From Candidatus Ruminococcus intestinipullorum (GTDB taxonomy: Bacteria > Bacillota > Clostridia > Lachnospirales > Lachnospiraceae), in the NCBI GenBank assembly GCA_018883985.1, contig JAHLFA010000059.1, positions 62,001 through 126,000 of the forward strand: a DNA stretch of 64,000 nt, written 5' to 3'. Below are positions 47,935-63,768 of the stretch, in pieces (the stretch's first letter is position 1; every line of letters begins with the position of its first letter). The position numbers were made by a program, and so were the translations under genes. A model generated the notes under the pieces. That model worked only from the letters and a program-made list of their open reading frames with translations, was not told the DNA's origin and ran no database searches.

Positions 47935-48576
47935 ATGAGACGAGTACTAAGTGGAGTATTAATATTATTTTCAATTATAGGAGTGTGTGCTTGCAGTCAA
48001 GCAAATGAGGAGCAAGGCGAACAAGTAGTAAACGTGACAGAAGAGATTGATCAGATGAAGGAGCATGCCGTTGATAAGGACAAATCTGTTTCAGTAGCTA
48101 CATATGTGGATGACAATGACGAACTCGCAGGTTATGTTGATATAAAAGTTATAGATACATATGTAGAAACAGAGAAAATTGAAAAAGCATCTTTAGATTT
48201 TCTAAAAAATCATATAGGGATGTTTATAGATGATGCAGGAATGCTATTAGATGGTTATTCCTTTGTCGGAGTGAAATTGAATATTAATTCAGAAGAGGAT
48301 TTAAATATAAATACAGCAGGTTTTACTCTTAAGGGTACCAACAACGATGAAATTTTTGGTGCAGGGTGTTTTTATCAAGATGGTCAACGAATAAGTGATG
48401 ATGTCCATCAAGGCGGTGTTGCGAAGTTACAAAAAGGGACAACAGAAATTACAGTTGGTTTTTTTGCAGATGAAAATTTGATGAAGTGTGAGGAAATCTT
48501 CTTGATACCAACAGTGTTCGCAACTGAGGAGAGTCAGGATAATTATATAGAAATAACGATTCAAAAGGGGAATTAA
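47935..48576 (+). CDS. Lipoprotein associated with ABC exporter
   Basis: Lipobox IIGVCACSQ. Confidence 0.7.
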   Translation: MRRVLSGVLILFSIIGVCACSQANEEQGEQVVNVTEEIDQMKEHAVDKDKSVSVATYVDDNDELAGYVDIKVIDTYVETEKIEKASLDFLKNHIGMFIDDAGMLLDGYSFVGVKLNINSEEDLNINTAGFTLKGTNNDEIFGAGCFYQDGQRISDDVHQGGVAKLQKGTTEITVGFFADENLMKCEEIFLIPTVFATEESQDNYIEITIQKGN

Positions 48577-48581
48577 AAAAT

Positions 48582-49424
48582 ATGAAAAACCTTTTAAAAG
48601 TAGAGTGTAAGAGGGTGTTTTCCAGTAAGGTATTTTATTTCTGTTTAGGGATAGGAGCAATACTATGTATATGGCTTTTAGGAATACAAGTTTTGGAAGT
48701 AAGAACATTTAATCAATTGATTCAAGAGTATGGAACAGAAAAGGTGGGATTATATTATCCGCGTTCTTTGTATAATTCGTTCATTGGACTTGATTATGCA
48801 TATTTACCATCAACCATATTATATACGATTTTTCCGCTCTTGGTAACATTACCACATGCTATGAGCTATTATCGTGATAAAAGGAGTGGGTATATAAAAA
48901 ATATATTAATAAAAGCGGATAAACGAGATTACTATGTAGCAAAATACCTTTCTGTTTTCCTGAGTGGTTTTATAGTTACAAGTATTATCTTGTTTTTTAG
49001 TTTATGGATTTCAGCAATATGTTTTCCAGCAATATTACCAGAAGTAACAACATCAACATATCTTCCAGCTAGTGCTATGGCAATGTATGTAGAATTATAT
49101 TATACACATCCTTTGGTTTATACAGTTGTTTATATTTTTATTGATGCAGTTTTTTATGGAATTATAGCAACTATAGCACTTTTGATAAGCTCTTATGCAG
49201 ACAATATATTATACGTGTTTGCAGGAGGAATGATTTTATATTTGATTACCGATTATATCACAGGCTTGGTGAATAAACGTGAATTTAGTCCTTTTAATTT
49301 TTTGAGACCAACACAAATCTCTTGTAATGCAAAGATAAGTATCATTGTAGCAGAGTTGATATTGCTAATAGTTCTAGTTGCCGTATCTTTTTTAAAAAAA
49401 GAAAGGGAAAAGGATGTATTTTAA
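48582..49424 (+). CDS. ABC transporter permease
   Basis: Six hydrophobic segments; YYRDKRSGYIKNILIKADKRDYYVAKYLS. Confidence 0.8.
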   Translation: MKNLLKVECKRVFSSKVFYFCLGIGAILCIWLLGIQVLEVRTFNQLIQEYGTEKVGLYYPRSLYNSFIGLDYAYLPSTILYTIFPLLVTLPHAMSYYRDKRSGYIKNILIKADKRDYYVAKYLSVFLSGFIVTSIILFFSLWISAICFPAILPEVTTSTYLPASAMAMYVELYYTHPLVYTVVYIFIDAVFYGIIATIALLISSYADNILYVFAGGMILYLITDYITGLVNKREFSPFNFLRPTQISCNAKISIIVAELILLIVLVAVSFLKKEREKDVF

Positions 49425-50241
49425 GTATGATTTAAAAATTGGATTCAGGAAAAATATCATGAGTCTATTTATTATCGCAGCTATCGTTTTTACAGCGGCA
49501 TTAGCATTTCATATTCAGATTTTAGATGAAAAAAGTGCGGAATTAATTTTGCCACGAAACTTAAATAGTATGGATTATTTTTTGCACGTATTTGAGGGAA
49601 TGAGACCGTACAGCCGAGTTTCTGATGAGAGATTTCAGCTCCCTATTACATGGTTTTTGATGAATGTGATTTTGTTTTATTTCACAGGGAAATATCCGTA
49701 TTCAGAAATATATAACAATCATGGAGCAAATGTGTTGGTAAGAGGTGGATCAAGGGAGAAGTGGTTTATATCAAAGTGGATGTGGTGCATTGTATGTGTA
49801 ACCTTATATTATTTTGTAGCATATGTAGTTTTGTTACTATTTTGTCTTATGGTAAACGTGACAATTAGCTTTGATATACAACCAATAGCTTATCAAAATC
49901 TATTATCTCCAGTGATGGAAATTACACAAGTTGATGTTATAAAAGTAATGATTTTACCACTCATTTCTTCTATGGCAGCTGTATCTGTTCAGCTCGTGAT
50001 TTCGTTGGTAACTTCAGATTTTACAGGGTTTATGTTTATGGCAGTTTTATATATTTCATCAGCATATTATTTTACCCCATTGTTAATAGGTAATTTTTCC
50101 ATGCTGGCACGAAGTGCCTTTTTTTATATAGGTGGAATTCCTATTATGCAAGCGATAATTTCTTCGATTGTAATAAGCATTTTATCATTAATAGCTGGTA
50201 TATATTTTTTCCGTAGACAGGATATTATGGAAAGGAGATAA
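49414..50241 (+). CDS. ABC transporter permease
   Basis: Six hydrophobic segments; NNHGANVLVRGGSREKWFISKWMW. Confidence 0.8.
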   Translation: MYFKYDLKIGFRKNIMSLFIIAAIVFTAALAFHIQILDEKSAELILPRNLNSMDYFLHVFEGMRPYSRVSDERFQLPITWFLMNVILFYFTGKYPYSEIYNNHGANVLVRGGSREKWFISKWMWCIVCVTLYYFVAYVVLLLFCLMVNVTISFDIQPIAYQNLLSPVMEITQVDVIKVMILPLISSMAAVSVQLVISLVTSDFTGFMFMAVLYISSAYYFTPLLIGNFSMLARSAFFYIGGIPIMQAIISSIVISILSLIAGIYFFRRQDIMERR

Positions 50242-50244
50242 GAG

Positions 50245-50874
50245 GTGTATATTCGATTAAAAAATGTGACAAAAAGGATAAAACAGGATATTGTGCTGGA
50301 CAACATATCTCTTGAATTTCAGGGAGGAAAATCTTACGGATTACAAGGTAAGAATGGTAGTGGAAAAACGATGCTTATGAGGGCAATCTGTGGTTTAATA
50401 ACCTTAACTGAGGGAGAGGTCGATATTAATGGTGAGATTTTACATAAGGATATTTCCTTTCCGAGAAGTATAGGAGTCTTGTTAGAGAATCCAGCATTTT
50501 TAAATGGCTATACAGGATTAGAGAATTTAAAGCTTTTGGCAGATATCCAAGGGGGAATCGAAGAAAATGAATTAAGAAATTGTCTAGTGAAAGTTGGATT
50601 GGATGCAGATGATAAACGTAGTTATAGAAAATATTCATTGGGTATGAAACAAAAGTTGGGTATTGCCGCTGCAATTATGGGAAATCCAGATATTGTAATT
50701 TTAGACGAGCCAATTAATGCCATTGATGAAGCTGGAGTGGAACAGGTAAGGAGGATTTTTGGTGAACTAAAAGCTAAGGGTTCTATTATTATTGTAGCAT
50801 GTCATGACAGAGAGGAATTGGAATTATTATCAGATGAAATTATAAAAATATCAAAAGGCAGGATTGTAGTATGA
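50245..50874 (+). CDS. ABC transporter ATP-binding protein
   Basis: GLQGKNGSGKTMLMRAICGL, YSLGMKQKLGIAAAIMGNPDIVILDEPINAID. Confidence 0.95.
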   Translation: MYIRLKNVTKRIKQDIVLDNISLEFQGGKSYGLQGKNGSGKTMLMRAICGLITLTEGEVDINGEILHKDISFPRSIGVLLENPAFLNGYTGLENLKLLADIQGGIEENELRNCLVKVGLDADDKRSYRKYSLGMKQKLGIAAAIMGNPDIVILDEPINAIDEAGVEQVRRIFGELKAKGSIIIVACHDREELELLSDEIIKISKGRIVV

Positions 50875-51395
50875 AAATTTATTTGAAAAAAATAATAATG
50901 ATTTTTCTGCTTGTAGTTTTGGGAATTCTATCTGTTGTGAGAATTATGTACGTCAATGCAAAACAACATGTAAAAGAAGTGTATACATATCAGGTAGGTG
51001 AAACATTCGAATATAATAACTTCCAGTTAAAAGTAGAGGAAGTAAATATTTATAACGTGGATGATATGAAAAGAATGTACAAAGAAATTCCCCAAGAGAT
51101 GCTGCCAGAGAATGAAATGCTAATCAAGGTAGAAGTTAAAAATATAGGAAATGAGGAGCAAGTGTTCAATGTTATACCGTTTACTTTACAGTGTGGGATA
51201 GAGAGAGGAAGTTCCCTTGATCCGTACGTATATCCCTATGTAAATCCAGAATTAAATGGAAACGTTGTTCTTGGAAAGGAAGAATCACAAACCGTAACAC
51301 TTGCTTATCCAGTAGATGAGAGTGCGTTAGAAAGAAAAGGGGAAATTAAGTTAATCTTATCTTTATATCCAATAAAATATCAAATAATACTATAA
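50871..51395 (+). CDS. Membrane-anchored DUF5028-like protein
   Basis: N-terminal TM; Ig-like MLIKVEVKNIGNEEQVFNV; family name tentative. Confidence 0.55.
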   Translation: MKIYLKKIIMIFLLVVLGILSVVRIMYVNAKQHVKEVYTYQVGETFEYNNFQLKVEEVNIYNVDDMKRMYKEIPQEMLPENEMLIKVEVKNIGNEEQVFNVIPFTLQCGIERGSSLDPYVYPYVNPELNGNVVLGKEESQTVTLAYPVDESALERKGEIKLILSLYPIKYQIIL

Positions 51396-51493
51396 GAGCC
51401 AAGAGCCTAGGTAAAACTTGACAAAGAAAAAGCAGAACATTAAAATTAGCATATAATAGAATGTGTGAGGAATGCACAGGTAAAGGGGAAATT

Positions 51494-52729
51494 ATGAGTC
51501 AAGTAAAAGAACTTAGGGTTCAAATGTTAGGTGGCTTTTCTATGCTGTATGGGGATCAGCAACTGACTTTTGGGAAGAATGTAGCATCCAAGTCCATGCA
51601 ATTATTACAATTACTTTTATATCGAAAGGACAGTGGAGTTGAACGAAAAGAGTTGATGGACACTCTATATGGAAGGAGTAATCTTTCAGATCCATCTAAC
51701 AATCTTAGGGTATCTGTACATCGATTGAGAAAGCAATTAATAGATGCTGGACTTCCAAAAGAAGAGTACATTCATATAGATGAGGGTGTCTATTGTTGGA
51801 AGAGTAGTTTTCCAGTTTCTATAGATGTGTTGGAATTTCAGGCTCTTATTTGTCAAGCAAAGGAAGTAGAGGATGAGGCAAGAATCAAGCTGTTACACCA
51901 AGCAGTTAATTTATATAGTGGAGATTTTTTGCCAAAATTATCAGGAGAAGATTGGGTTGTTTTAGAATCAGTTGGACATAAAAGAGCGTATGAAGACGCA
52001 TTACGAGAAGTGCTAGTATATCAAAGCAGCAAAGAACAGTATGCCGAGATGCTTAGACTGGCTGGGATTGCCAGTGATTTATATCCATTTGATGAATGGC
52101 AGTCTTATAAAATAGAAGCATTTATGGGAATGGGCAAGGATGAAGAGGCACTACGAGTGTACAATGAAACATCCAAGCTATTTTTTGAAGAACTAGGAAT
52201 TTCTCCATCTGAGAGAATTGAGAATCAGTTTAAAATTATGAGCGATCATATGCGAAATATTCCTAAATTAATTTCTGATATCCAAGATGGATTGCAGGAA
52301 AAAGAAGAGGAAAAGGGTGCATATTACTGTAGCTTTCCAAGTTTTTTGGATGAGTATCGAGTAGTGAAGAGAATCGTAGAGAGAAATGGGGATTCGGTTT
52401 ATCTAATGCTCTGTACACTTATGGATAGTAAGGGAAATCCTATGCAAAGTGGCAAGAAATTAGATGAAATGTCTAAAGAATTAAGAAAAGCAATTAAAGA
52501 TAGTTTGAGAAAAGGCGATTCCTATACGCAATATAGTGCAAATCAGTTCTTGATTTTATTAATTGGAACAAAGGAAGAAAGTTGTCATGTTGTTTCAGAA
52601 CGTATTTCAGAGCATTTGTCTAAGGTTCACAAACATTGGAGAAATTGTGTAGAATATCATATCTCTTCTATTATAGATACGAAGCACGAAGAATCACAAA
52701 TTAACTTTAAACGAAAATCAAATGAATAA
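51494..52729 (+). CDS. BTAD-domain (AfsR/SARP-like) transcriptional regulator
   Basis: RVQMLGGFSMLYGDQQLTF...NNLRVSVHRLRKQL...YSGDFLPKLSGEDWV... winged helix plus TPR-like BTAD. Confidence 0.88.
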   Translation: MSQVKELRVQMLGGFSMLYGDQQLTFGKNVASKSMQLLQLLLYRKDSGVERKELMDTLYGRSNLSDPSNNLRVSVHRLRKQLIDAGLPKEEYIHIDEGVYCWKSSFPVSIDVLEFQALICQAKEVEDEARIKLLHQAVNLYSGDFLPKLSGEDWVVLESVGHKRAYEDALREVLVYQSSKEQYAEMLRLAGIASDLYPFDEWQSYKIEAFMGMGKDEEALRVYNETSKLFFEELGISPSERIENQFKIMSDHMRNIPKLISDIQDGLQEKEEEKGAYYCSFPSFLDEYRVVKRIVERNGDSVYLMLCTLMDSKGNPMQSGKKLDEMSKELRKAIKDSLRKGDSYTQYSANQFLILLIGTKEESCHVVSERISEHLSKVHKHWRNCVEYHISSIIDTKHEESQINFKRKSNE

Positions 52730-52748
52730 TAAGATAGAACTATGGTCA

Positions 52749-52783
52749 AGAAAGCAGGTAGAAATATCTGCTTTCTTTTTTTT
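52749..52783 (+). terminator. Rho-independent terminator after BTAD regulator
   Basis: AGAAAGCAG gtagaaatat CTGCTTTCT TTTTTTT. Confidence 0.9.
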
Positions 52784-52899
52784 GCAAAAAATTTTAAAAA
52801 ATGGAAAATTTTACCGTACTGTAATGCCAACTGTTAATGGTAGGGTATGTAAAATAAAACCATCCGATGCAGGAGTAAGGCAGATAGAAGGTGAGAAGG

Positions 52900-53352
52900 A
52901 TGTGGACACCAAACTTGATTGTAGTGTGTGTGGATAATGTTGATAACGAAGTTTACCAAGGTCGAATCTATCATCTTTATAGGAATCAGCCAATTTACTT
53001 TGCAAATATATTACAAATGATTAAGTGGATGGAAGCTTTTTATAATGAACTTGAATTTCCAAAATCATCTACAAAAGATCGATATTTTGTAAAGAAAAAG
53101 TATCCAATGTTACAGGGAGGGAAGAGAGTGTTAAGTAAGAATCAAATTATGAAGCAAAAAGGAAAACAAGGAACCTTCCTAGTTCGAGTTCAATATCGAC
53201 AAAATGCAACTTGGCAAGGACAGATTACATGGGTTGAAGGTCAAGAAACAAAATCCTTCCGAAGTGTGTTGGAGATGTTGAAGCTAATGGATAACGTCAT
53301 TGATATAGAAGAAGAAAGGAAAGGAGAGGCGATTGGCTATGAAGAAGAATAG
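52900..53352 (+). CDS. Uncharacterised small protein with two-fold internal repeat
   Basis: Good ORF (alternative GTG start 52891) abutting adhesin gene; halves share xVxV...QGxI......F...L.M.K.M. Confidence 0.7.
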   Translation: MWTPNLIVVCVDNVDNEVYQGRIYHLYRNQPIYFANILQMIKWMEAFYNELEFPKSSTKDRYFVKKKYPMLQGGKRVLSKNQIMKQKGKQGTFLVRVQYRQNATWQGQITWVEGQETKSFRSVLEMLKLMDNVIDIEEERKGEAIGYEEE

Positions 53353-56300
53353 AGTAAAAAGGTTTCTGGCAGGGTTGTTATGTTTTAGTATGATTGGCAG
53401 CACAAATTTACTAGCCTTTGCTGAAACAACAGGGCAACAAGAGGTTCAGGTGGTAGAATCTACGGAAGAAACAACAGAGTTAGAAGCAGTAGAAGAACCA
53501 GAAGAAATCACAGAGCCAGAAGTAGTAGAAGAAGAACCAGAAGAAATCACAGAGCCAGAAGTAGTAGAGGAAGTGACGGAAGAAATTACAGAGCCAGAGG
53601 TAGTAGAAGAAGTAACGGAAGAAATTACAGAGCCAGAGGTAGTAGAAGAAGTAACAGAAGAAGCCACAGAGCCAGAGGTAGTAGAGGAAGAAACGGAAGA
53701 AACTACAGAGCCAGAGGTGGTAGAGGAAGAAACTACAGAGCAAGAAGTAGTAGAAGAAACAACAAATAGTGTAGAGCAACAGGTAGAACTACAAATTGGA
53801 AATCATGATTATAAAATTATAGATTTAGAAAATAATGGGATTACACTTTGGAAATATCAAAGTATGCTCACAGAAATGAAAAATCAAATAGAAAGTAATG
53901 ATGGAACAAATATCCCAATTTTAAATTGGAGGCGTTCAAGTAATTCTGTAGAAGTTCCAAAAGTTGGGCATGGTAGCAACGGTGACTGGAAATGGCCAGA
54001 TGTAGTAGATGACCTAGCTTTAGACATCACAGATGAAGCAGCTGTTTGGGATGGCTCCCGATTAGTTAAAGGAGCAGTTAATCATGTAGCAAAGAGTGAA
54101 GATTATATAAAAGATAATCAGATTACATCAGTAGATGGGAATTTGTATGATTCTGCCACATGGGATTGTGGTGAATTATCTGGAGGAACTGCAAGGTTGT
54201 TTAGGTTTCAGGGTGTTTTTGATATAGGAAACCTAAATCCAAATGATTATGCATTTACAATAGAACCTATGATAACAGGTGGAAACAAAGAAATTTATAT
54301 TAATGATGATATGTTTGTATTTGTTTATCCTGTAGATGAAAATGGAAGCCCAGTAGTAGAGATATCAGATAATAATTTTCTAGCTTATCTAGCTTTCTGG
54401 ACAGGAACTATATATAACAATGGAGCTTCAGAAATAGATGATGTAACAGAATTTCATAATATTTCGGGAACCCCAGCAAGTTGGGATCAAGATAATGTTC
54501 ATGAAAATGTTCTTGGAAAGTTAACAGATGGATGGAATGTAGAGGCAACAGAGGATAATGCAGGAAATATTATTCAAACATCTTACAATCAGGGTGGATA
54601 TACAAGATATGCGATAGATATTTTTGTAGATGATTATGCTGGAAGTGGTGGAATGTATCGCCCAGTTATGACTGCATCTTATGTAGAAAAGCATCAAATA
54701 GAGTTCTATAAAGTGGACCAATATGGAGAGCCATTAGAAGGAGCAGAATTTGAGTTAAGACGAGGCTCAACTCGTTATACAGGATTTTCTGATGAAAATG
54801 GTAAAGTTTCTATCACTCTTGTGCCAGGTCAATACACCATGAAAGAAATAAAAGCACCAGAGAATTGTGAATCGTTAAATGAAAATACGAAATGGAAAGT
54901 TGTTGTTGGAAGTAACGGTGGTTACACAATTGAAGCAATTGAACACAGCAATTTAAAAGTAGAAGATAACAAATATTTTATTAAAAATCAATCCATATTG
55001 GAAACGGAGATTTCATTTATAAAAACAGATGAAAAAGGAAGCCCAATAAAAGGAGTAGAATTTGTTTTAACGAACGAAGAGGGAGGGAAAGAGAGTTATA
55101 CAGCAACATCAGATGAGAATGGTGTTGTAAAAATAGTAGATGTTCCAAAAGGAACGTACACAATGAAAGAAAAAACAGTACCTGAAGGATACTTAAAATC
55201 AGGTCCATGGACAGTGGAAGTAGAGTCGGGGCGTAAATGTACAATTGATGGTCCAAATCTAACAACTCGAAATGGACAGTATCAAATTATGAACTACAAA
55301 TTTGAATCAAGTATCCAAGTTGATAAAAAAGTTGAAGTAGTAGATTATGACCAAAGAACATACGAAATTACGTTGTCAGCAAAATCCATTCTTAGTCAAA
55401 TTCAACAAGGAGAGCCAGTAGACATTGTTTTAGCTGTGGATACATCAAGATCTATGGATTTCCCAGGAAGTCTAAAAGCTATAGGAGATGCAACAACATT
55501 TAAAAGTTTGGATAAATCTCAAACGTACTATTATATCGGAACAACATCAGCAGCAACGGTATATGAAGTTCGATATAAAAGAGATGCTTGGTACTATAAG
55601 GATAGTTCTAATCCAGATGAAGAGGATGAAGGAACAAAGATTACAAGAAATTCTGATATTTTGCAATCAGATGAGAAATATGTTTTCTATCAATCAGTTG
55701 GAGAGGCTACTCGTTTATATTACTTAAAAGAGGCATTAAATAACTTTATTAACGAATTTGCAAGAATTTCAGAAGAGAATGGATTGGAAAATCGAATTGG
55801 CTTAGTTACTTTTGCAGAAGATTCAGAAATTAAATGTGAATTAAATACAATTTCTGAAAATAAAGAAGCAATATTAAATGAAATAAATGGAATTAAGACA
55901 GCAAGTGGAACAAATCAGGCAGGAGCATTAGATGATGCAAATACGATGTTGACAGAAACGGAAAATAAACAATATGTACTTCTTCTTACTGATGGAGCAC
56001 CTAACTGGAAAGATAAGGACGGTCACACTGTTGGAGAAGTGGAAGCATGGAAAACCATTGGTGCGCTAGCGGGTGACATCAAGGGTAAAGGTGCTACGCT
56101 TATGACCATAGGAGTTGGACTCAACTATGTAAAAGGTGCAGAGGCGAAGTTAGCGAATATTGCATCTGAGGATTCAAAAGGAAATCCATATGCTTATCAA
56201 ACAGAAAATGCAGATAACCTAGTAGAATTGTTTGAAGGAATGCTAGCAACAATTGTGACAGGTATTCCAGTTGAAAATGTAACAATTACAGATATCATCG

Positions 56301-57523
56301 ACCCAAGATTCCAGTTAGTTGGAGAACTAGGAGATGTGAATTATAGCGAAGATACAGGAACACTTACTTGGGAGAACGTAACCATACCATATGTAATAAG
56401 TGGAAGAAAAGGTTGGGAAGTGAAATTTACAGTTCAGGCAAAAGACGATTTTATGGGAGGAAATGTAATTCCGACAAATGGAGCAGGTTCAGGAGTTTCT
56501 AAAGACGGTATTACAATTGCATTTCCACAACCAATGGTAAATGTGAAACTTCTTGATTTAGAACTTCCAAATCTGGAGATTGCATACTTCAAAGGAGATG
56601 AAATCCAAGTATCTGAATTTCCAAGAGAGTTGTTAAATGGAAGTGAGATTTATCTTGATGTAGATAACAACAATGAACTAACGGAAGGCAGTGAAAGTGC
56701 ATTAGAAGAACAGCAGGTTCAAACAATCTTGAATTTAACTCAAGAGGAATGGGAAGCTATACTTCAAGGTAAACAAGTTGCCAAAGATTATATTTACTCT
56801 GGAACGACAGAAAAAGTTGGAACATTTATTTACCAATTTGAAGCAGTAGATGGAAAAGGTGAGTTAAAGAACCACATAGCAAATCAGGCAGGAAGTCCAG
56901 CAGAGGTATATAAATTGACAATACAATACCAAGCAGATCAAAAGAATGGGCAAGATAGAATCCCAGGTACTGCTGTAAAAGATGTTCAAGCAAGTGGTCA
57001 ATATCAAGTATTTGTAATAGATGGAAAAATTGATATTTCTAAACAGATTCTAGAAGTAAATCCAAACTTAGAAGGAGATGCAATTTTTACCTTTAAGATT
57101 GAGAGATTGAATGAAAAAGGCAATGCAGAAGAGGTATTTTATAGAACCATTCGTATGGATCAAGCAGGAGTTATGCATGCTGAATCATTAACAGGACTTG
57201 CAAAAGGAACATACAAAATAACAGAGCTTGAAACACAAAAGTATGAGCTTGATAGTATAAGTATGACAGAGAGAAACATAGAGGAAAGTACTCCTGTTAA
57301 TATGGAAGAGAAGTCTATTACATTTACGATAGGAGAGCAGCACATTGAAAAGAATGTCACAGGATATACTTGCAAAGACCAAGAAGCTCAAGTGTTGTTT
57401 GAAAATGAAAAGGATTCACCAAAATCAAACACTGATACGGATGTTAGATTGAATCGTTTTGTAAAGAAAGATGGAAAGTGGGTTATTGAATCTTATGAAA
57501 CTCCACAAAATCCAGAGAAGTAG
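53339..57523 (+). CDS. Large surface protein: signal peptide, acidic repeats, SpaA/Cna-B-like domains, VWA domain; no C-terminal anchor
   Basis: Signal RFLAGLLCFSMIGSTNLLAFAE; SpaA HQIEFYKVDQYGEPLEGAEFEL and TEISFIKTDEKGSPIKGVEFVLT; VWA DIVLAVDTSRSM ... LLLTDGAPN. Confidence 0.9.
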   Translation: MKKNRVKRFLAGLLCFSMIGSTNLLAFAETTGQQEVQVVESTEETTELEAVEEPEEITEPEVVEEEPEEITEPEVVEEVTEEITEPEVVEEVTEEITEPEVVEEVTEEATEPEVVEEETEETTEPEVVEEETTEQEVVEETTNSVEQQVELQIGNHDYKIIDLENNGITLWKYQSMLTEMKNQIESNDGTNIPILNWRRSSNSVEVPKVGHGSNGDWKWPDVVDDLALDITDEAAVWDGSRLVKGAVNHVAKSEDYIKDNQITSVDGNLYDSATWDCGELSGGTARLFRFQGVFDIGNLNPNDYAFTIEPMITGGNKEIYINDDMFVFVYPVDENGSPVVEISDNNFLAYLAFWTGTIYNNGASEIDDVTEFHNISGTPASWDQDNVHENVLGKLTDGWNVEATEDNAGNIIQTSYNQGGYTRYAIDIFVDDYAGSGGMYRPVMTASYVEKHQIEFYKVDQYGEPLEGAEFELRRGSTRYTGFSDENGKVSITLVPGQYTMKEIKAPENCESLNENTKWKVVVGSNGGYTIEAIEHSNLKVEDNKYFIKNQSILETEISFIKTDEKGSPIKGVEFVLTNEEGGKESYTATSDENGVVKIVDVPKGTYTMKEKTVPEGYLKSGPWTVEVESGRKCTIDGPNLTTRNGQYQIMNYKFESSIQVDKKVEVVDYDQRTYEITLSAKSILSQIQQGEPVDIVLAVDTSRSMDFPGSLKAIGDATTFKSLDKSQTYYYIGTTSAATVYEVRYKRDAWYYKDSSNPDEEDEGTKITRNSDILQSDEKYVFYQSVGEATRLYYLKEALNNFINEFARISEENGLENRIGLVTFAEDSEIKCELNTISENKEAILNEINGIKTASGTNQAGALDDANTMLTETENKQYVLLLTDGAPNWKDKDGHTVGEVEAWKTIGALAGDIKGKGATLMTIGVGLNYVKGAEAKLANIASEDSKGNPYAYQTENADNLVELFEGMLATIVTGIPVENVTITDIIDPRFQLVGELGDVNYSEDTGTLTWENVTIPYVISGRKGWEVKFTVQAKDDFMGGNVIPTNGAGSGVSKDGITIAFPQPMVNVKLLDLELPNLEIAYFKGDEIQVSEFPRELLNGSEIYLDVDNNNELTEGSESALEEQQVQTILNLTQEEWEAILQGKQVAKDYIYSGTTEKVGTFIYQFEAVDGKGELKNHIANQAGSPAEVYKLTIQYQADQKNGQDRIPGTAVKDVQASGQYQVFVIDGKIDISKQILEVNPNLEGDAIFTFKIERLNEKGNAEEVFYRTIRMDQAGVMHAESLTGLAKGTYKITELETQKYELDSISMTERNIEESTPVNMEEKSITFTIGEQHIEKNVTGYTCKDQEAQVLFENEKDSPKSNTDTDVRLNRFVKKDGKWVIESYETPQNPEK
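53495..53760 (+). repeat. 39-bp tandem coding repeat, about 6.8 units (EEITEPEVVEEVT)
   Basis: 13-aa units EPEEITEPEVVEE x2, VTEEITEPEVVEE x2, VTEEATEPEVVEE, ETEETTEPEVVEE, ETTEQEVVEE. Confidence 0.9.
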
Positions 57524-57544
57524 TGAGAAAGGAGGGAATAGAGT

Positions 57545-58129
57545 ATGAAAAAATTTAAGATAACGTCGTTTAAAACGTTTGGAATCTCAGCTTTCTTGCT
57601 AACAGTTATTATAGGAGTCACAATAACAGTTGCTCTTGAAGTAGCACAGTCAAACTTTATAACAAATACCTTTGCAACAAGCAAAATTGATACAGAAATA
57701 GAGGAAGACATAAGTGTAGACGGTGAAACGTTGAATAAGAGGGTATCGGTAAAGAATGTAGAAGATGCTACGGCTGATGCTTATATAAGAGTACGATTAA
57801 CAAAAAGCCCAGAGGATGCTTCTATCCAACTTATTTATAGCGAGGGTGCTTTAAGCACCCCCGTAGCAAAAGAGAATACTTGGATTGATGGTGGAGATGG
57901 TTTTTACTATTATCGCTATTCTGTTGCACCAGGAACAGAAACAACCGAGTTACTAAGTGGAGTAGATGCAAAAGGGTTTGAGGGAAACTTTGATGTGATT
58001 GTATATCAGGAGTCTTGTATTGCAGCAGAAGAAAATCGTTATAGCTTAGGGGAAGAAAATGTACCAACAGACTTAAGTACAATTAAGTCTACATTTGAGA
58101 GGGCAACAGAAATAAAGGAAGAACAATAA
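57545..58129 (+). CDS. SipW-dependent/TasA-like exported protein 1
   Basis: N-terminal hydrophobic segment then SNFITNTFATSKIDTEIEED; short beta-rich body; adjacent to sipW. Confidence 0.75.
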   Translation: MKKFKITSFKTFGISAFLLTVIIGVTITVALEVAQSNFITNTFATSKIDTEIEEDISVDGETLNKRVSVKNVEDATADAYIRVRLTKSPEDASIQLIYSEGALSTPVAKENTWIDGGDGFYYYRYSVAPGTETTELLSGVDAKGFEGNFDVIVYQESCIAAEENRYSLGEENVPTDLSTIKSTFERATEIKEEQ

Positions 58130-58141
58130 GAGAGGTGGGGC

Positions 58142-58678
58142 ATGATGTTAAAAAAGATTTGTAATTTTCTATCGGGAATCATCGTGTGTGTACTGGCAAT
58201 GTTGGCATCGGCATTGTTAATACCAAAAGCAATGGGATATGAAGAAATGGCAGTTTTAACAGGCAGTATGGAGCCAGAGTATCCCGTAGGATCTTTGATT
58301 TACGTAAAGCAAATAGATCCAAATCTACTTCAAGTAGACGATGTGATTACTTATCGTATGGGAGAGGATACAGTAGTTACTCACCGTATTGTAGAAATGA
58401 ATTTGAAAGAAGGCACAGTAATTACAAAAGGTGATGCCAATGAAAAAGAAGATGGCAAGCCAGTTGAGTTTAATCAAATTATAGGAAAAGCAGAATTCAA
58501 AATCCCTTATCTTGGATATGTAAGCATGAATATTAAAACACAAACAGGGATTATGGCAATTTGTGGAGTATTGATTGCAATTATTCTGTTAACATTTATT
58601 CCAGAAATTTTTTCAAATGAAGAAGAGGTGAAAAAAATCTCAAAAAAGAAAAACCGTTTAGAAGCAAAAAACATGTAA
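58142..58678 (+). CDS. sipW: Signal peptidase I, SipW type (Ser-His)
   Basis: LTGSMEPEYPVGSLIYVK, TVVTHRIVEM, ITKGDANEKEDGKPV. Confidence 0.93.
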   Translation: MMLKKICNFLSGIIVCVLAMLASALLIPKAMGYEEMAVLTGSMEPEYPVGSLIYVKQIDPNLLQVDDVITYRMGEDTVVTHRIVEMNLKEGTVITKGDANEKEDGKPVEFNQIIGKAEFKIPYLGYVSMNIKTQTGIMAICGVLIAIILLTFIPEIFSNEEEVKKISKKKNRLEAKNM

Positions 58679-58692
58679 AGGAGAGGATTATT

Positions 58693-59403
58693 ATGATGAA
58701 GAAAAAATTAATGTTAGCGGCAGTATCTACAGGTTTGGTGGCAGCAGTAGGAGTTGGAGGCACATTGGCATATCTGAGTGCACAGTCAGAACAAGTAACA
58801 AATACCTTTGCTGTAGGAGAAGGATACATTGAAGAAGAAGGTGGAGATGCCAAAGGAATTTGGCTAGATGAAACATTGGTGGATTCAGAAACAGGAGAAC
58901 CAGTAGTTCCAGCACAACGTACTCTTGAAAATGAGTATAATGATTTACTTCCTGCAGATACGAGAATGAAAGATCCTACAGTATCAATGATAGGTGGTTC
59001 TGTTGATTCTTATGTATTTGTCAAAGTAGATGGAGTTGATGAACTAAATGAAAAAGGAGTTTCTGTTCAAGACTTTAATGGAGATGATTGGCAGCTAGTA
59101 GCTCCAGAGGGAGAAGGCACAATGGATGGAATCTACATTTATAAAGGAGATGACCTTTCTTATGCAGATGCCCAAGGAAATAAAGTTGTAAAAGTTAGTG
59201 ATCAGGAAAAAGGAACAAAAATAACATTATCTACGGTATTTGAAAGTATCTATGTAGATTCCAATATTACACAAGACGGGTTAGAAGCTTTACAAGGCAA
59301 CTTAAATGATATTGTACTTCAGGCTGTTGCAGTGCAGGCAGATAACAATACAGCAGACAATGCACTAGAACAAGCAGAAGCTATATTAAATGGAGAACAG
59401 TAA
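58693..59403 (+). CDS. SipW-dependent/TasA-like exported protein 2
   Basis: GVGGTLAYLSAQSEQVTNTFAVGEG. Confidence 0.88.
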   Translation: MMKKKLMLAAVSTGLVAAVGVGGTLAYLSAQSEQVTNTFAVGEGYIEEEGGDAKGIWLDETLVDSETGEPVVPAQRTLENEYNDLLPADTRMKDPTVSMIGGSVDSYVFVKVDGVDELNEKGVSVQDFNGDDWQLVAPEGEGTMDGIYIYKGDDLSYADAQGNKVVKVSDQEKGTKITLSTVFESIYVDSNITQDGLEALQGNLNDIVLQAVAVQADNNTADNALEQAEAILNGEQ

Positions 59404-59430
59404 AAGATTTTATATAAGGAGGATACGGTC

Positions 59431-60153
59431 ATGAATAAAAAACAAATTGCAAAATTAGGTGTAACTTTAGGTTTAGTAGGTGCAGTAGGAGTTGGAGGGA
59501 CATTGGCTCTCTTATCCGCACAGTCCAATGTAGTAACCAATACATTCGCAGCTGGAAATGGTATTGATGCAGCTGAAGATATTACATTGTTTGAGCATAT
59601 TCCAGTAGAAAACGCAGAAGCAAAAGATAATCCAGTAACAAATAAGTATAATGATGGATCAGAAACAGAATATAAAGAATTGATCGCAAAGGTTGGAGTT
59701 TCTTATTCCAATCTAGAGCCAAATATGACTTTGGATAAGGATCCAGCAGTTCAAATTTCTGAAGGTACGGCAGACTGTTATCTATTTGTAAAGGTAGATA
59801 GCTCTAAATTTACAGGTGTAGTTGGTGATGTGGAGATAGATGGAATTTACAACACTGGTGAAGAGGGATATAAGGCTCCTAATTGGCACTTATTAGATGA
59901 TGATCAGAATATCTACTATTACCAAGTGGGTGATAATAAGGTAATTGATACAGAAGCTGAAGCTTTTGTCAGTGATCCATTGTTTGAAACAATTAATTTA
60001 GGAATGAATGCAGCATTATATAATGCAGATGGTAGCAGTGCATTAGATGACACTGATAATATTGAAATTAAAGCATTTATCGTTCAGGCTACAGAAAATG
60101 GAAACTGGGAACAAGCTGTTGAATTAGCAATGAACGAAAATTCATGGAAATAA
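59431..60153 (+). CDS. SipW-dependent/TasA-like exported protein 3
   Basis: GVGGTLALLSAQSNVVTNTFAAGNG; paralogue of the preceding gene. Confidence 0.88.
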   Translation: MNKKQIAKLGVTLGLVGAVGVGGTLALLSAQSNVVTNTFAAGNGIDAAEDITLFEHIPVENAEAKDNPVTNKYNDGSETEYKELIAKVGVSYSNLEPNMTLDKDPAVQISEGTADCYLFVKVDSSKFTGVVGDVEIDGIYNTGEEGYKAPNWHLLDDDQNIYYYQVGDNKVIDTEAEAFVSDPLFETINLGMNAALYNADGSSALDDTDNIEIKAFIVQATENGNWEQAVELAMNENSWK

Positions 60154-60170
60154 TAATAGAGAGGAGCTGA

Positions 60171-60803
60171 GTGATAATGAATAAGAAGAAAGTTGCAACA
60201 CTTATAGTATCACTTGGGTTATTATCTGTAGTTGGTGTAGGAGCAACACTTGCATATTTTACAGATAATGCAGAACAGGAAAATATCATTACAATGGGAC
60301 ATGTGGATATTGACTTAACAGAAGAAAGTAATGGAGAGGAAGGCAAGGAAGGTACCCCAATTGAAAATGGTTTATCATTTGAAAATATTATGCCAGGAGA
60401 TGTGGTATCTAAAATTCCGACCATTACAATTGATGGAAATTCTCAGAGTGCCTATGTTCGAATGAATATGACCATATCTGCTGGGGATAGCAGTATAACA
60501 CAAGAAGATATTTCTGAACTAGAGAATACACTAAGAGCAGAAATTACAGATGGAACAGGGTGGTATTACTCAGCAGAGGATGAATATTATTACTATAATA
60601 CAGCACTACAAGCTGGAGAAGGAATCGAATTCTTCGATACAGTAACGATTCCAGCCACATGGGCAAATAATACGGCAGATCAAGGATTTACCATCACACT
60701 ACAAGCAGAAGCAATTCAAGAAGAAAATGTAACTGTTGAAACAGATGGTACTTTCATTACAGGATGGCCAGATTCAGAAATTTATCGATACACAGAATCT
60801 TAG
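60171..60803 (+). CDS. SipW-dependent/TasA-camelysin-like exported protein 4
   Basis: GVGATLAYFTDNAEQENIITMGHVDIDLTEES...ENIMPGDVVSKIPTI. Confidence 0.9.
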   Translation: MIMNKKKVATLIVSLGLLSVVGVGATLAYFTDNAEQENIITMGHVDIDLTEESNGEEGKEGTPIENGLSFENIMPGDVVSKIPTITIDGNSQSAYVRMNMTISAGDSSITQEDISELENTLRAEITDGTGWYYSAEDEYYYYNTALQAGEGIEFFDTVTIPATWANNTADQGFTITLQAEAIQEENVTVETDGTFITGWPDSEIYRYTES

Positions 60804-60848
60804 TAATTTTTATATAACAGTGAGAACGGATACGAAAGGAGGAAGGTT

Positions 60849-61340
60849 ATGCTGTCAAAGCTTTTAAATATTTTAGCAACAATCATGATGGTTGTAGTAA
60901 TCCTCCTTGCCGTACCTCTCACCTTACCAAAGCTATTTGGATATCAGATATACGGTATCCTAACAGAGAGTATGGAGCCTGTTTACCCTGTAGGTTGTGC
61001 AGTATATGTTAAATCTGTACAGCCAGAGGATGTTCAAATTGGGGATGCCATTACATTTCATTTGGGGTCAGGTACACAGGCAACTGCAACACACCGTGTT
61101 GTAGAGATTGATACAAAAAAACAAGAGTTTATTACGAAAGGAGATGCCAATGCCTCTTCTGATGTGGAGCCAGTGAGATTTTCACAGTTGATTGGAAAGG
61201 TGACAGGCAAGTTGCCCTGGATTGGAGGATTTTCTGTTTTCCTACATTCTGGAAAAGGGATTGCTACATGTAGTCTTATCTTTGGGATAGCGTTGGCTTT
61301 GTGGAAAATAGCAGACAGAGTAAAGGAGTGTAAAGCATGA
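60849..61340 (+). CDS. sipW: Signal peptidase I, SipW type, second copy
   Basis: LTESMEPVYPVGCAVYVK, ATHRVVEI, ITKGDANASSDVEPV. Confidence 0.93.
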   Translation: MLSKLLNILATIMMVVVILLAVPLTLPKLFGYQIYGILTESMEPVYPVGCAVYVKSVQPEDVQIGDAITFHLGSGTQATATHRVVEIDTKKQEFITKGDANASSDVEPVRFSQLIGKVTGKLPWIGGFSVFLHSGKGIATCSLIFGIALALWKIADRVKECKA

Positions 61341-61957
61341 AGAAAAAATATATACTCATGGGCGTAGCAGCCACGCTGCTTGTAACAGCAATCGCAGGAG
61401 GTTCCTTGGCATACTTTCAAGCAGATGGAGAAAACGTTCAGCAACAAATTAATACAAAATCTTTAAGCATTGATTTAATAGGAAGTGGAAACGAAAACAC
61501 GAAACAGAGTGTATTAGTGGCAAATACAATGCCAGGTGAACAAATTGAGAAAAATGTTAAAGTAGAAAATACAGCAGATACCCCATTATATACTCGTGTA
61601 ACCATTCGTAAGTACTGGGGAGATTTTTCAAATGATAATCTCACAAAGGATTTTGATAAAGATACTTCTAAAATTTTGATTCCAACGTTAGAAAATTGGT
61701 ATATCTCTACTGGAGAAGGGGATGACGAAACACTTGTAATGTATTATCAAGATCCAATACAGCCAGGGGAATCCGTAGATGTGATGTACTCTTTAGAAGT
61801 TTCTCCAGAGTTGAATAACACATATGCAAACTTAGGAATTGGTTTAGACGTAGAGGCAGAGGCTGTTCAGGCATTTGCAGCACAGGATGCCATTCTTTCT
61901 GAATGGGGTGTATGGGCAGAAATAGATGGCGACCATATTGTTTATGTCGAAGAATAA
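61337..61957 (+). CDS. SipW-dependent/TasA-like exported protein 5
   Basis: IAGGSLAYFQADGENVQQQINTKSLSIDLIGSG...NTMPGEQIEKNVKVENTADTPLYTRV. Confidence 0.88.
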   Translation: MKKKYILMGVAATLLVTAIAGGSLAYFQADGENVQQQINTKSLSIDLIGSGNENTKQSVLVANTMPGEQIEKNVKVENTADTPLYTRVTIRKYWGDFSNDNLTKDFDKDTSKILIPTLENWYISTGEGDDETLVMYYQDPIQPGESVDVMYSLEVSPELNNTYANLGIGLDVEAEAVQAFAAQDAILSEWGVWAEIDGDHIVYVEE

Positions 61958-61981
61958 CCGTAGAAAGGATAGGGTGACAGC

Positions 61982-62740
61982 ATGAAGAGAATAATAATGA
62001 TTATAGGATTGATAACATCTTTGCTGTTTGGTACGAATACGGTTGCGTTTGCACAGGAAACGCCGACAGTAACATTTGATGGAAGCAGCGAGATGAAATA
62101 CAATTATGACAACACACAAAACTTTGGGACTGCATTTGAAGAAATGCTCCCAGGAGAGTCAAGAACACAAGAAATCCTTTTGAAAAATGATTATACTCGA
62201 GGCGTCGATTTTTATATGCAGCAAGAAGTAATTCGTTCTTTTGAAGATACGGTAGAAGCTAGCGGTGCAGCATATGATATTTCACTTGTATTAGTAAAAG
62301 GACAGGAAAGAACACAAATCTTCGGTGGTGGAGAAGATGCGGGACGTATTGGTGGTGACGAAGAAGGACTTGCAAATTTAAATGATGCTGTAGACGGTTG
62401 GGTTTATCTTACAGATTTAAATGCAGGAGAAGTGGCATCACTTCAATTAACAGTAACATTAGATGGAGAGTCTAATACAAATGCATACCAAGATGCAAGT
62501 GGAACATTTGAATTTCAATTCCGTGCAACCTATGACGACCCAGAAACTGTATACGAGAAAGGTGAAACACAATTTGTAACAAAAGAAGTAAAAGGGAAAA
62601 ACACCATTACTCGAATACGTAGTACCATAAAGACAGGAGATCAAGCTCCAATTGTACTTTTTGGAGCTAGTGCAGCACTTGCAGTATTTGTTTTGATTTT
62701 TTTGGTGGTTCGTCACAGAAAAGGCAAGGAAAATGAATAA
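61982..62740 (+). CDS. Exported surface protein with C-terminal sorting-like TM tail (IKTGD)
   Basis: Signal peptide ...NTVAFAQE; C-terminus STIKTGDQAPIVLFGASAALAVFVLIFLVVRHRKGKENE. Confidence 0.8.
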   Translation: MKRIIMIIGLITSLLFGTNTVAFAQETPTVTFDGSSEMKYNYDNTQNFGTAFEEMLPGESRTQEILLKNDYTRGVDFYMQQEVIRSFEDTVEASGAAYDISLVLVKGQERTQIFGGGEDAGRIGGDEEGLANLNDAVDGWVYLTDLNAGEVASLQLTVTLDGESNTNAYQDASGTFEFQFRATYDDPETVYEKGETQFVTKEVKGKNTITRIRSTIKTGDQAPIVLFGASAALAVFVLIFLVVRHRKGKENE

Positions 62741-62757
62741 GTAAAGGCGGAGTATTT

Positions 62758-63768
62758 ATGAAGAAAAATTTTGAGAAATGGATAAAAACAGCAATGGTGT
62801 TCTGTCTTGGAGCCTCTGCAGTTGTTGCGGCAGCTCCAATTCAAGTAAAAGCTGCTGAGCAAATGTATACAATCACATATCGTCCAGGACGAATTGGTAC
62901 ATTTCGTGAAGAGTTAATTCAACGTTATGATACTTATGCAAAGGAAAATGGAGGAAGTATTACCGTTGGAAGACGAACTGGAAATATCAAAATGCAGCTT
63001 CCAGCTGGAACAGCATATCCAGCAGCACCAAGACAGGACGAAATTGAAATCAAGGAAGAGTATCAGGGCAGATATGTGATTAACACAGATTGGATGCCTC
63101 AAACAGGTCGTACAGTAAGTGAGAGTGATTGCTATGTAGTAGACTATGAGGCGTTAGTTAATGGAGTTTCCTATCGAATTGAGTTTGTGGATGCACAAAG
63201 TGGAGAGCAAGTAGATTCTCCAATTATTGCACAAGGAAATGTGGGGCAGTATGTAACATACGCACCAGCACAAGTGATAGACACATATGTATTAGAGGAT
63301 GCACAATCTAAGGGCATGACGCTTGAGGAAGATGGAGAAAATATTTTGACATTTTCCTATGTAAACACAGATGTAAATGTAGTTTCAATTCCAGGCGAGG
63401 TTGTTACAAATGAGGTAACTGTTCCAGGGGATAATACTACAATTGTCGAGGGAGTGCCAGCTACGACCCCAGCTACGACTCCAGCTACGACTCCAGCTGC
63501 AGCTCCAGACGAAACAGCAGATGAAACACAGGATGATACAACACTTATTGAGGAAGAGGAAGTACCATTAGCAGAAGCTCCAACAGAAGAGGGCGATGAG
63601 GATACTGTTACAGTAGATGAAGATGAAGTACCTTTAGGAAATAAGGAGTTAGATGAGCAAGATACGAAAATGAATACGGCAATCATTATAGGAAGTACGA
63701 TAGGAGTGCTTGCAATTGCGACTGCGGCAGGAATGTTGATTTGGAAAAAGAAACATGTGAAAAAATAA
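62758..63768 (+). CDS. Membrane-anchored surface protein, MucBP-like region, PATT repeats, acidic linker
   Basis: Signal peptide ...PIQVKAAE; YRIEFVDAQSGEQVDSPIIAQGNVGQYVTYA; PATTPATTPATTP; terminal TM and KKKHVKK. Confidence 0.75.
   Translation: MKKNFEKWIKTAMVFCLGASAVVAAAPIQVKAAEQMYTITYRPGRIGTFREELIQRYDTYAKENGGSITVGRRTGNIKMQLPAGTAYPAAPRQDEIEIKEEYQGRYVINTDWMPQTGRTVSESDCYVVDYEALVNGVSYRIEFVDAQSGEQVDSPIIAQGNVGQYVTYAPAQVIDTYVLEDAQSKGMTLEEDGENILTFSYVNTDVNVVSIPGEVVTNEVTVPGDNTTIVEGVPATTPATTPATTPAAAPDETADETQDDTTLIEEEEVPLAEAPTEEGDEDTVTVDEDEVPLGNKELDEQDTKMNTAIIIGSTIGVLAIATAAGMLIWKKKHVKK

Follow-up and report, generated by a model that had tools for sequence, protein, structure and literature searches.

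A run of 11 genes in a 64,000-nucleotide stretch of the genome of Candidatus Ruminococcus intestinipullorum, a member of the Lachnospiraceae, appears to encode a SipW-dependent, wall-anchored adhesive fibre of two joined modules, a reading to which we assign a probability of about 0.55. The stretch, hereafter the window, corresponds to contig C45:62001-126000, and the source genome was recovered as 2.14 Mb at an estimated 83.5% completeness. The genes occupy positions 52900-63768 of the + strand, on which the upstream hairpin and regulator gene described below also lie, in the order DUP (a small, internally duplicated protein), adhesin, T1, SipW1, T2a, T2b, T2c, SipW2, T5, IKTGD and MUC, the T proteins being TasA-like substrates of SipW.

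An earlier note on this DNA, made from its letters, had described a tightly packed same-strand run, and the description was borne out. The intergenic gaps range from -14 to +45 bp, the reading frames of SipW2 and T5 share 4 bp, and every frame of the run is intact. A terminator-like hairpin with a 13-pair stem and a T-run (52748..52777) divides a probable regulator gene, just upstream, from the structural genes, and between the 11 genes no further site of this kind was detected. The run is not a chance assemblage, because another genus (locus L036) repeats this 11-gene order, with T2 in two copies rather than three.

The comparison of gene neighbourhoods across the family that the earlier note had proposed revealed a recurrent gene order and, with it, a modular system. 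The bodies of the adhesins diverge too fast to guide such a comparison, and SipW was therefore taken as the anchor. SipW scored over its cut-off in 7 of 58 genomes of the genus, 118 of 396 of the family (~30%) and 90 of 392 of the order, and a T1-type match was present in 84 of the 396 family genomes. From the family and order we fetched 100 SipW loci, sampled by strongest SipW score, called and clustered their genes and compared the orders. T5 and IKTGD were adjacent in that order in 26/26 loci, IKTGD and MUC in 27/27, and a tail-bearing pilin of cluster c8 preceded T1 in 17/17, counts that are not independent events, as the loci are related and were picked by SipW score. Two arrangements stood out. 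Type A loci, the window included, carry a BTAD regulator, DUP, a large adhesin, T1, SipW, T2 copies (one to four across loci) and T5-IKTGD-MUC. Type B loci carry an LPXTG adhesin, an LPXTG pilin (SpaH/EbpB), a class C sortase, c8, T1, T5, IKTGD, MUC and SipW, sometimes with a class B sortase, BTAD and DUP in addition. The set T1/T5/IKTGD/MUC/SipW is common to both; it accompanies a large adhesin with an array of TasA-like proteins in the one and a class C-sortase pilus in the other. Identity to the window's proteins is ~18-56%, and thus the order is kept while the sequences drift.

Both peptidases, SipW1 (58142..58678) and SipW2 (60849..61340), are of the endoplasmic reticulum (ER) type and, at 104.9 and 91.6 bits, pass the cut-off of TIGR02228, the only two proteins in the genome to do so. 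Their catalytic residues, S42/H81/D98/D104 in SipW1 and S41/H82/D99/D105 in SipW2, are intact, and across 122 homologues the catalytic Ser, His and Asp are conserved to at least 98%. A tree of 122 sequences places SipW1, which belongs to the adhesin-T1-T2 module, among SipWs that lie between T1 and T2 (10 rows, support 90/82). SipW2, which belongs to the T5-IKTGD-MUC module, groups with SipWs flanked by T2 and T5 (4 rows, 100/94) inside a 7-row clade (98/92), to which 19 SipWs mostly of pilus-type loci are nearest (joined at 88/88). Recent local duplication is ruled out by this tree, and the separate clades mark the two as old paralogues, one per module. Two SipWs had been correctly called; that a pair should be exceptional was mistaken, as at least two are found in 31/101 sampled loci.

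The T proteins are T1 (57545..58129), T2a (58693..59403), T2b (59431..60153), T2c (60177..60803) and T5 (61337..61957). The SipW-type signal model TIGR04088 scores T2a, T2b and T2c over its cut-off but not T1 or T5, and the camelysin/TasA family PF12389 is matched over its cut-off of 22.5 bits by T2c (25.7) and T5 (25.0). T2a and T2b are tied to that family as members of the T2 profile, and by hhalign T1 is a full-length homologue of T2 (E 1.5e-32) and of T5 (1.1e-22); T1, T2 and T5 profiles from other loci are all mutually homologous over their full length (E 1.5e-32, 7.9e-23 and 1.1e-22). The only family model matched by T1 on its own is TIGR04090 (BsaA), below cut-off (E 7.7e-9). Because every TIGR04090 score falls below the curated cut-off of 60 bits (the best, for T5, is 41.5 bits), we have not filed the T proteins as BsaA. 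Thus the claim of five TasA-like proteins holds as sequence kinship but lacks structural confirmation, a point to which we return below.

The adhesin (53339..57523) has a Sec signal peptide, acidic repeats, two SpaA stretches (PF17802, 2.7e-34) and one VWA domain (PF00092, 2e-14). The domains are those previously assigned to it, but its best start, the ATG at 53339, gives 1394 rather than 1396 amino acids. The protein ends in ..SYETPQNPEK and has neither an LPXTG signal nor a C-terminal membrane segment. It had been called sortase-pilus-like, a label that reflects domain resemblance only: the sortase signal is absent, and the genome yielded class B sortases only. Bodies related to the adhesin are present in other loci; a direct search of the genome's contigs yielded none, and one of relatives gave matches limited to the SpaA and VWA domains.

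What is conserved is the C-terminal tail. In the window this element (57410..57520, ..NTDTDVRLNRFVKKDGKWVIE..) is a proposed docking or donor-strand element, and in an alignment of the tails of 50 proteins the pattern 'VxFxN...TDVxxNxF' comprises a last SpaA-like strand ('VxFxN') and the short tail behind it. Large adhesins have the form '..(S/H)(T)D[V]xxNxF..' and c8 pilins the form '..GGYGVxNHF..'; the tail is kept among proteins of differing body architecture. Among c8 proteins 16/17 show the pattern 'VxFxN...VxxNxF', as do 17/24 of the remaining proteins beside T1. Among other secreted C-termini the figure is 22/323, and ~15 of these 22 are themselves adhesins or c8 proteins of SipW loci. 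The tail classes follow the T1 clades, and just 2/41 T1 neighbours have a membrane-like C-terminus. In TasA the segment after the signal peptide is the donor strand (PMC9674648), and the adhesin tail resembles the corresponding segment of SipW substrates ('VTNTF.xG'). A matrix built on the N-termini of SipW substrates ranks the tails over other secreted C-termini with an area under the curve (AUC) of 0.72 (p 2.6e-6, a value that ignores relatedness). T1 itself carries, after its signal helix, the segment SNFITNTFATSKID (57650..57691), a proposed donor strand that has the NxF pattern of the adhesin tails and that lies outside the predicted sheets in an AlphaFold2 (AF2) model.

At the other end of the run, the IKTGD protein (61982..62740) has a Sec signal peptide, a beta-rich domain and a C-terminal sortase-type sorting signal (62627..62737, IKTGD-TM-RHRKGKENE, TM denoting the membrane segment), a proposed class B sortase substrate. 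The TGD is invariant in an alignment of 28/28 homologues, in which it is followed by a hydrophobic membrane segment and a basic RK tail. The earlier note had recognized the tail; that the protein is probably the wall anchor is a point it had not raised. Curated sorting-signal models match it weakly (EF0750_LPXTG 0.002, srtB_target 0.083), as do the T2 and T5 profiles. A TG-anchored protein is present in 40/50 T1 loci. In addition, T and IKTGD domains occur fused in nine proteins of cluster c20 and in L139:2627-4357. Their T domains score at E 1e-14 to 1e-34, and their IKTGD-type domains range from E 5.5e-10 at best to 0.08 at the weakest. Nearly all of these fusions finish in a TG-membrane-RK tail, and the L139 protein abuts a class B sortase (2e-61), so that, as judged from sequence, a TasA-like subunit joined to a class-B-type sorting signal exists. 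L140 and L141 were rejected as fusions, being stand-alone T-domain proteins without an anchor, and we took a T1 match to a long frame in G234, beside c8, to reflect a frame that is open by accident. Remote IKTGD-type matches (E 1e-19 to 1e-8) were also seen in other families of the phylum (L130, L131, L132 and L134), two of the four in ~470-amino-acid frames.

No sortase of any kind is encoded in the 11-gene run. The genome has three sortases, all of class B, and none of another class was found in the 83.5% recovered. One of the class B enzymes, on the same contig (C45, ~41-44 kb; L126:5347-7798), is a candidate for the enzyme that anchors IKTGD; it lies in a polysaccharide locus with an LCP-type gene and a 198-amino-acid SPKTGE-tailed protein. 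On contig C60 a single frame (L128:2141-3949) begins as a ParB-like protein and continues into SpaA repeats and a PKTGD tail. It lies beside a class B sortase, in surroundings that resemble a mobile element, and may be a real fusion or an assembly artefact. The last gene of the run, MUC (62758..63768), encodes a secreted protein with acidic EVPLA/EVPLG motifs and a C-terminal membrane segment. The gene is as previously called, but its assignment as MucBP-like is weak, the scores (PF17965, E 0.065; NF033073, 6.1e-8) being below cut-off.

We propose that the adhesin-T1-SipW1-T2a-c module would form the distal part of a fibre and the SipW2-T5-IKTGD-MUC module the proximal part, each SipW releasing the T proteins of its own module. 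The adhesin would leave the cell by the ordinary Sec route and, with no sortase linkage, dock on T1 through its strand-like tail, T1 acting as the adapter that receives it. SipW1 would free the N-termini of T1 and of the T2 proteins, the putative shaft, which could then chain by donor-strand exchange in the manner of TasA. T5 would join the shaft to IKTGD, which a class B sortase may covalently tie to peptidoglycan via its TGD tail, and MUC would sit at the base, in membrane or wall. From tip to base the chain would read adhesin (tail), T1, T2a-c, T5 and IKTGD (wall), an order with which the gene order agrees in both locus types. The adhesin would thus be a donor-only starter with complete domains, for which TapA offers a precedent (PMC10151520). 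The BTAD protein, perhaps with DUP, would control expression. Of the composite TasA-type fibre with a VWA adhesin envisaged earlier, the composite part is retained, in keeping with the gene order, the pairing of adhesin with T1 and the conservation of the tail, and the likeness to a sortase pilus is reduced to one of domains.

Several observations weigh against this proposal. The AF2 model of T1 is a confident beta-sandwich (mean predicted local distance difference test [pLDDT] score of 88), but a Foldseek search of the Protein Data Bank with it did not return TasA in the top 50, and profile searches of the sequences in that database with T1, T2, T5 and IKTGD gave no meaningful relatives and no TasA. 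The T1 model did match CsuA/B (6fqa), a donor-strand-accepting pilin, with probability 0.91; matches to BBSome and complement proteins were rejected as generic jelly-roll likeness. The model of IKTGD (pLDDT 68, core strands ~90) matched TasA (5of1/5of2) with probability 0.99 over nearly all of TasA, but the match is weak (E 2-3e-3, template-modelling [TM] scores 0.33/0.42) and unrelated jelly-roll folds rank alongside. The top matches by E-value, to the clostridial enterotoxin C-terminal domain and CUB domains, are likewise generic and were discarded because their TM scores are low and their root-mean-square deviations large. The structural check proposed in the earlier note did not confirm a TasA fold for T1, and the same check of IKTGD gave a TasA match of high probability and low TM score. 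As for the tails, against shuffled tails the AUC falls to 0.61 (p 0.007, again ignoring relatedness), and the likeness to donor strands is moderate, evident mainly in the adhesins and not in c8. With the N-terminus matrix the tail found in the window does not rank among the highest scores, and the NxF motif that we read as donor is absent from the type B T1 proteins inspected. Moreover, the tail patterns were set post hoc, after the tails had been viewed; a first, narrow motif missed the window's own tail and was dropped for a wider one. Given the moderate likeness, we regard donor-strand docking as a reasoned inference rather than a result.

Other explanations were weighed. The locus could be an ordinary TasA/BsaA-like matrix operon producing loose biofilm fibres, with the adhesin secreted separately, soluble or loosely bound, and the tail serving some unrelated role, such as stabilizing the last domain. 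SipW with PF12389/TIGR04088 proteins is indeed the known matrix kit (PMC7395162), the structure of T1 shows no receiving partner, and the tails are only moderately like donor strands. Nonetheless, the tail is conserved over different bodies specifically beside T1, the adhesin systematically lacks an anchor, and a TGD-anchored partner is conserved, as IKTGD or in fused forms; we consider this explanation unlikely. It is also rather improbable, in our estimation, that T1, the T2 proteins and T5 are single-copy links that tie the adhesin or a class C pilus to IKTGD and do not polymerize. Pilus-type loci do have just T1 and T5, with no T2 array, between pilus and IKTGD, and the three T2 paralogues differ from one another (T2a is 36% identical to T2b and 28% to T2c), as would fit fixed positions. 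However, their relatives TasA and BsaA polymerize (PMC9674648, PMC7395162), and the T2 number, 1 to 4 depending on the locus, fits a shaft.

Two further alternatives bear on the adhesin. Its tail, kept across different bodies and placed just where an LPXTG motif would follow the last SpaA-like strand, might be a sorting signal for another anchoring enzyme, or be cleaved, rather than a docking strand. Yet no further conserved enzyme gene besides SipW is present in all tailed loci, and several tails stop a few residues past NxF and lack both a membrane segment and a basic end, and so we give this idea little credence. Alternatively, the locus could be what remains of a sortase pilus locus after the loss of the class C sortase and the LPXTG pilin, with the adhesin left as an orphan. 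Sister loci do hold a class C sortase and a SpaH/EbpB-type pilin in that position, and the genome is an incomplete metagenome-assembled genome (MAG). But the combination of an anchorless adhesin and a T2 array recurs in many genera with the tail conserved, a recurrence that largely refutes this scenario, and every frame and SipW catalytic residue is intact; we find it scarcely credible.

The wall-anchored fibre that we favour resembles several known systems and differs from each. With the tapA-sipW-tasA operon of B. subtilis the locus shares an ER-type SipW, SipW-type signal peptides, camelysin/TasA-family subunits (two over the Pfam cut-off) and a proposed donor-only starter, TapA there and the adhesin tail here. 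Unlike that operon, it has two dedicated SipWs, five substrates, a VWA/SpaA adhesin within the operon and a sortase-type wall anchor; no TapA-like gene was recognized in it, and a TasA fold of T1 was not confirmed. The sipW-bsaABCRSD operon of C. perfringens (PMC7395162) likewise combines SipW with several small secreted proteins, shows BsaA-family (TIGR04090) similarity and is adjoined by srtB, which we count among the likenesses. In the window, however, TIGR04090 scores are below cut-off and the regulator is of the BTAD type rather than BsaRS, whereas the operon as reported from C. perfringens has neither a SpaA/VWA adhesin nor a TGD-anchored protein. SpaA/Ebp-type class C-sortase pili share the SpaA and VWA domains of the adhesin, and the sister loci with T1/T5/IKTGD/MUC/SipW carry a SpaH/EbpB pilin, a class C sortase and often a class B sortase; the window and the recovered genome, in contrast, lack a class C sortase, and the adhesin lacks LPXTG. 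Finally, the CapP/TasA/CalY filaments of B. cereus also combine several TasA-type subunits with an accessory wall-associated protein, but the TasA/CalY system is described as sortase-independent and the accessory role falls to CapP rather than to a TGD-tailed protein (PMC13082335). Subscription papers aside, the literature gave no account of the loci described here or of sortase-anchored TasA-like proteins.

The gene upstream of the hairpin (51461..52729, with a start codon at 51461 or at a later in-frame ATG) encodes a protein with a Trans_reg_C winged-helix, a BTAD and a C-terminal GGDEF-like domain, with Pfam scores over the cut-offs; its nearest named relative is from an uncultured Lachnospiraceae MAG. 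Its cluster is found in 21 sampled loci, in many of them beside DUP, and it is probably the local regulator of the locus. The GGDEF-like signature is degenerate and reads SANQF, and a role as a cyclase is therefore improbable. DUP (52900..53352) is a cytosolic-looking small protein of 150 amino acids from its best start, the ATG at 52900. It matched nothing in Pfam and NCBIfam. It consists of two related units, and the duplication noted earlier is corroborated by half-size, single-unit homologues (cluster 38). Its family (cluster 12) is present in 17 loci and is scarce in the genus away from such loci, and its role is possibly regulatory. Directly 5' of the regulator (47935-51395) lie genes for a lipoprotein, two ABC permease-like proteins, an ABC ATPase and a DUF4352 protein, which may be an exporter or immunity unit without relation to the fibre locus, and a DUF3810 gene lies downstream of the run.

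We note that SipW loci of other kinds also recurred in the sample. Seven (L057, L086, L107, L115, L116, L122 and L123) contain a conserved membrane protein (c10) together with c16, c25, c23 and c26 and also encode a secreted protein of ~2200 amino acids (c27). In 11 others (L037, L039, L040, L041, L048, L059, L077, L079, L081, L096 and L125) two phylogenetically distinct SipWs flank c15, with c24 (often TGD-tailed) or c36 in addition. In L049, L095 and L100, from three genera, the SipW/T5/IKTGD set adjoins a type IV/Tad-like pilus cluster (c48, c49, c34 and c35).

On the questions of how TasA-type fibres stay on the cell and whether adhesins ride on them, these loci suggest an answer that can be tested, namely that a TasA-like base is anchored in the wall and that the adhesin docks through a short tail. 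More broadly, and more tentatively, since we put it at somewhat less than even odds, the loci may represent a new way of assembling Gram-positive surface structures, widespread in Lachnospiraceae. In it, sortase-type adhesins or whole class C pili would insert a C-terminal donor-strand tail into an adapter related to TasA, and a class B sortase would hold the TasA-like chain on the wall by acting on its base, itself TasA-like and TGD-tailed. If so, donor-strand and sortase assembly would be combined in one organelle, and tail docking, if right, would link two assembly principles thought to be separate, in a major group of gut bacteria about whose surface appendages little has been learned so far.

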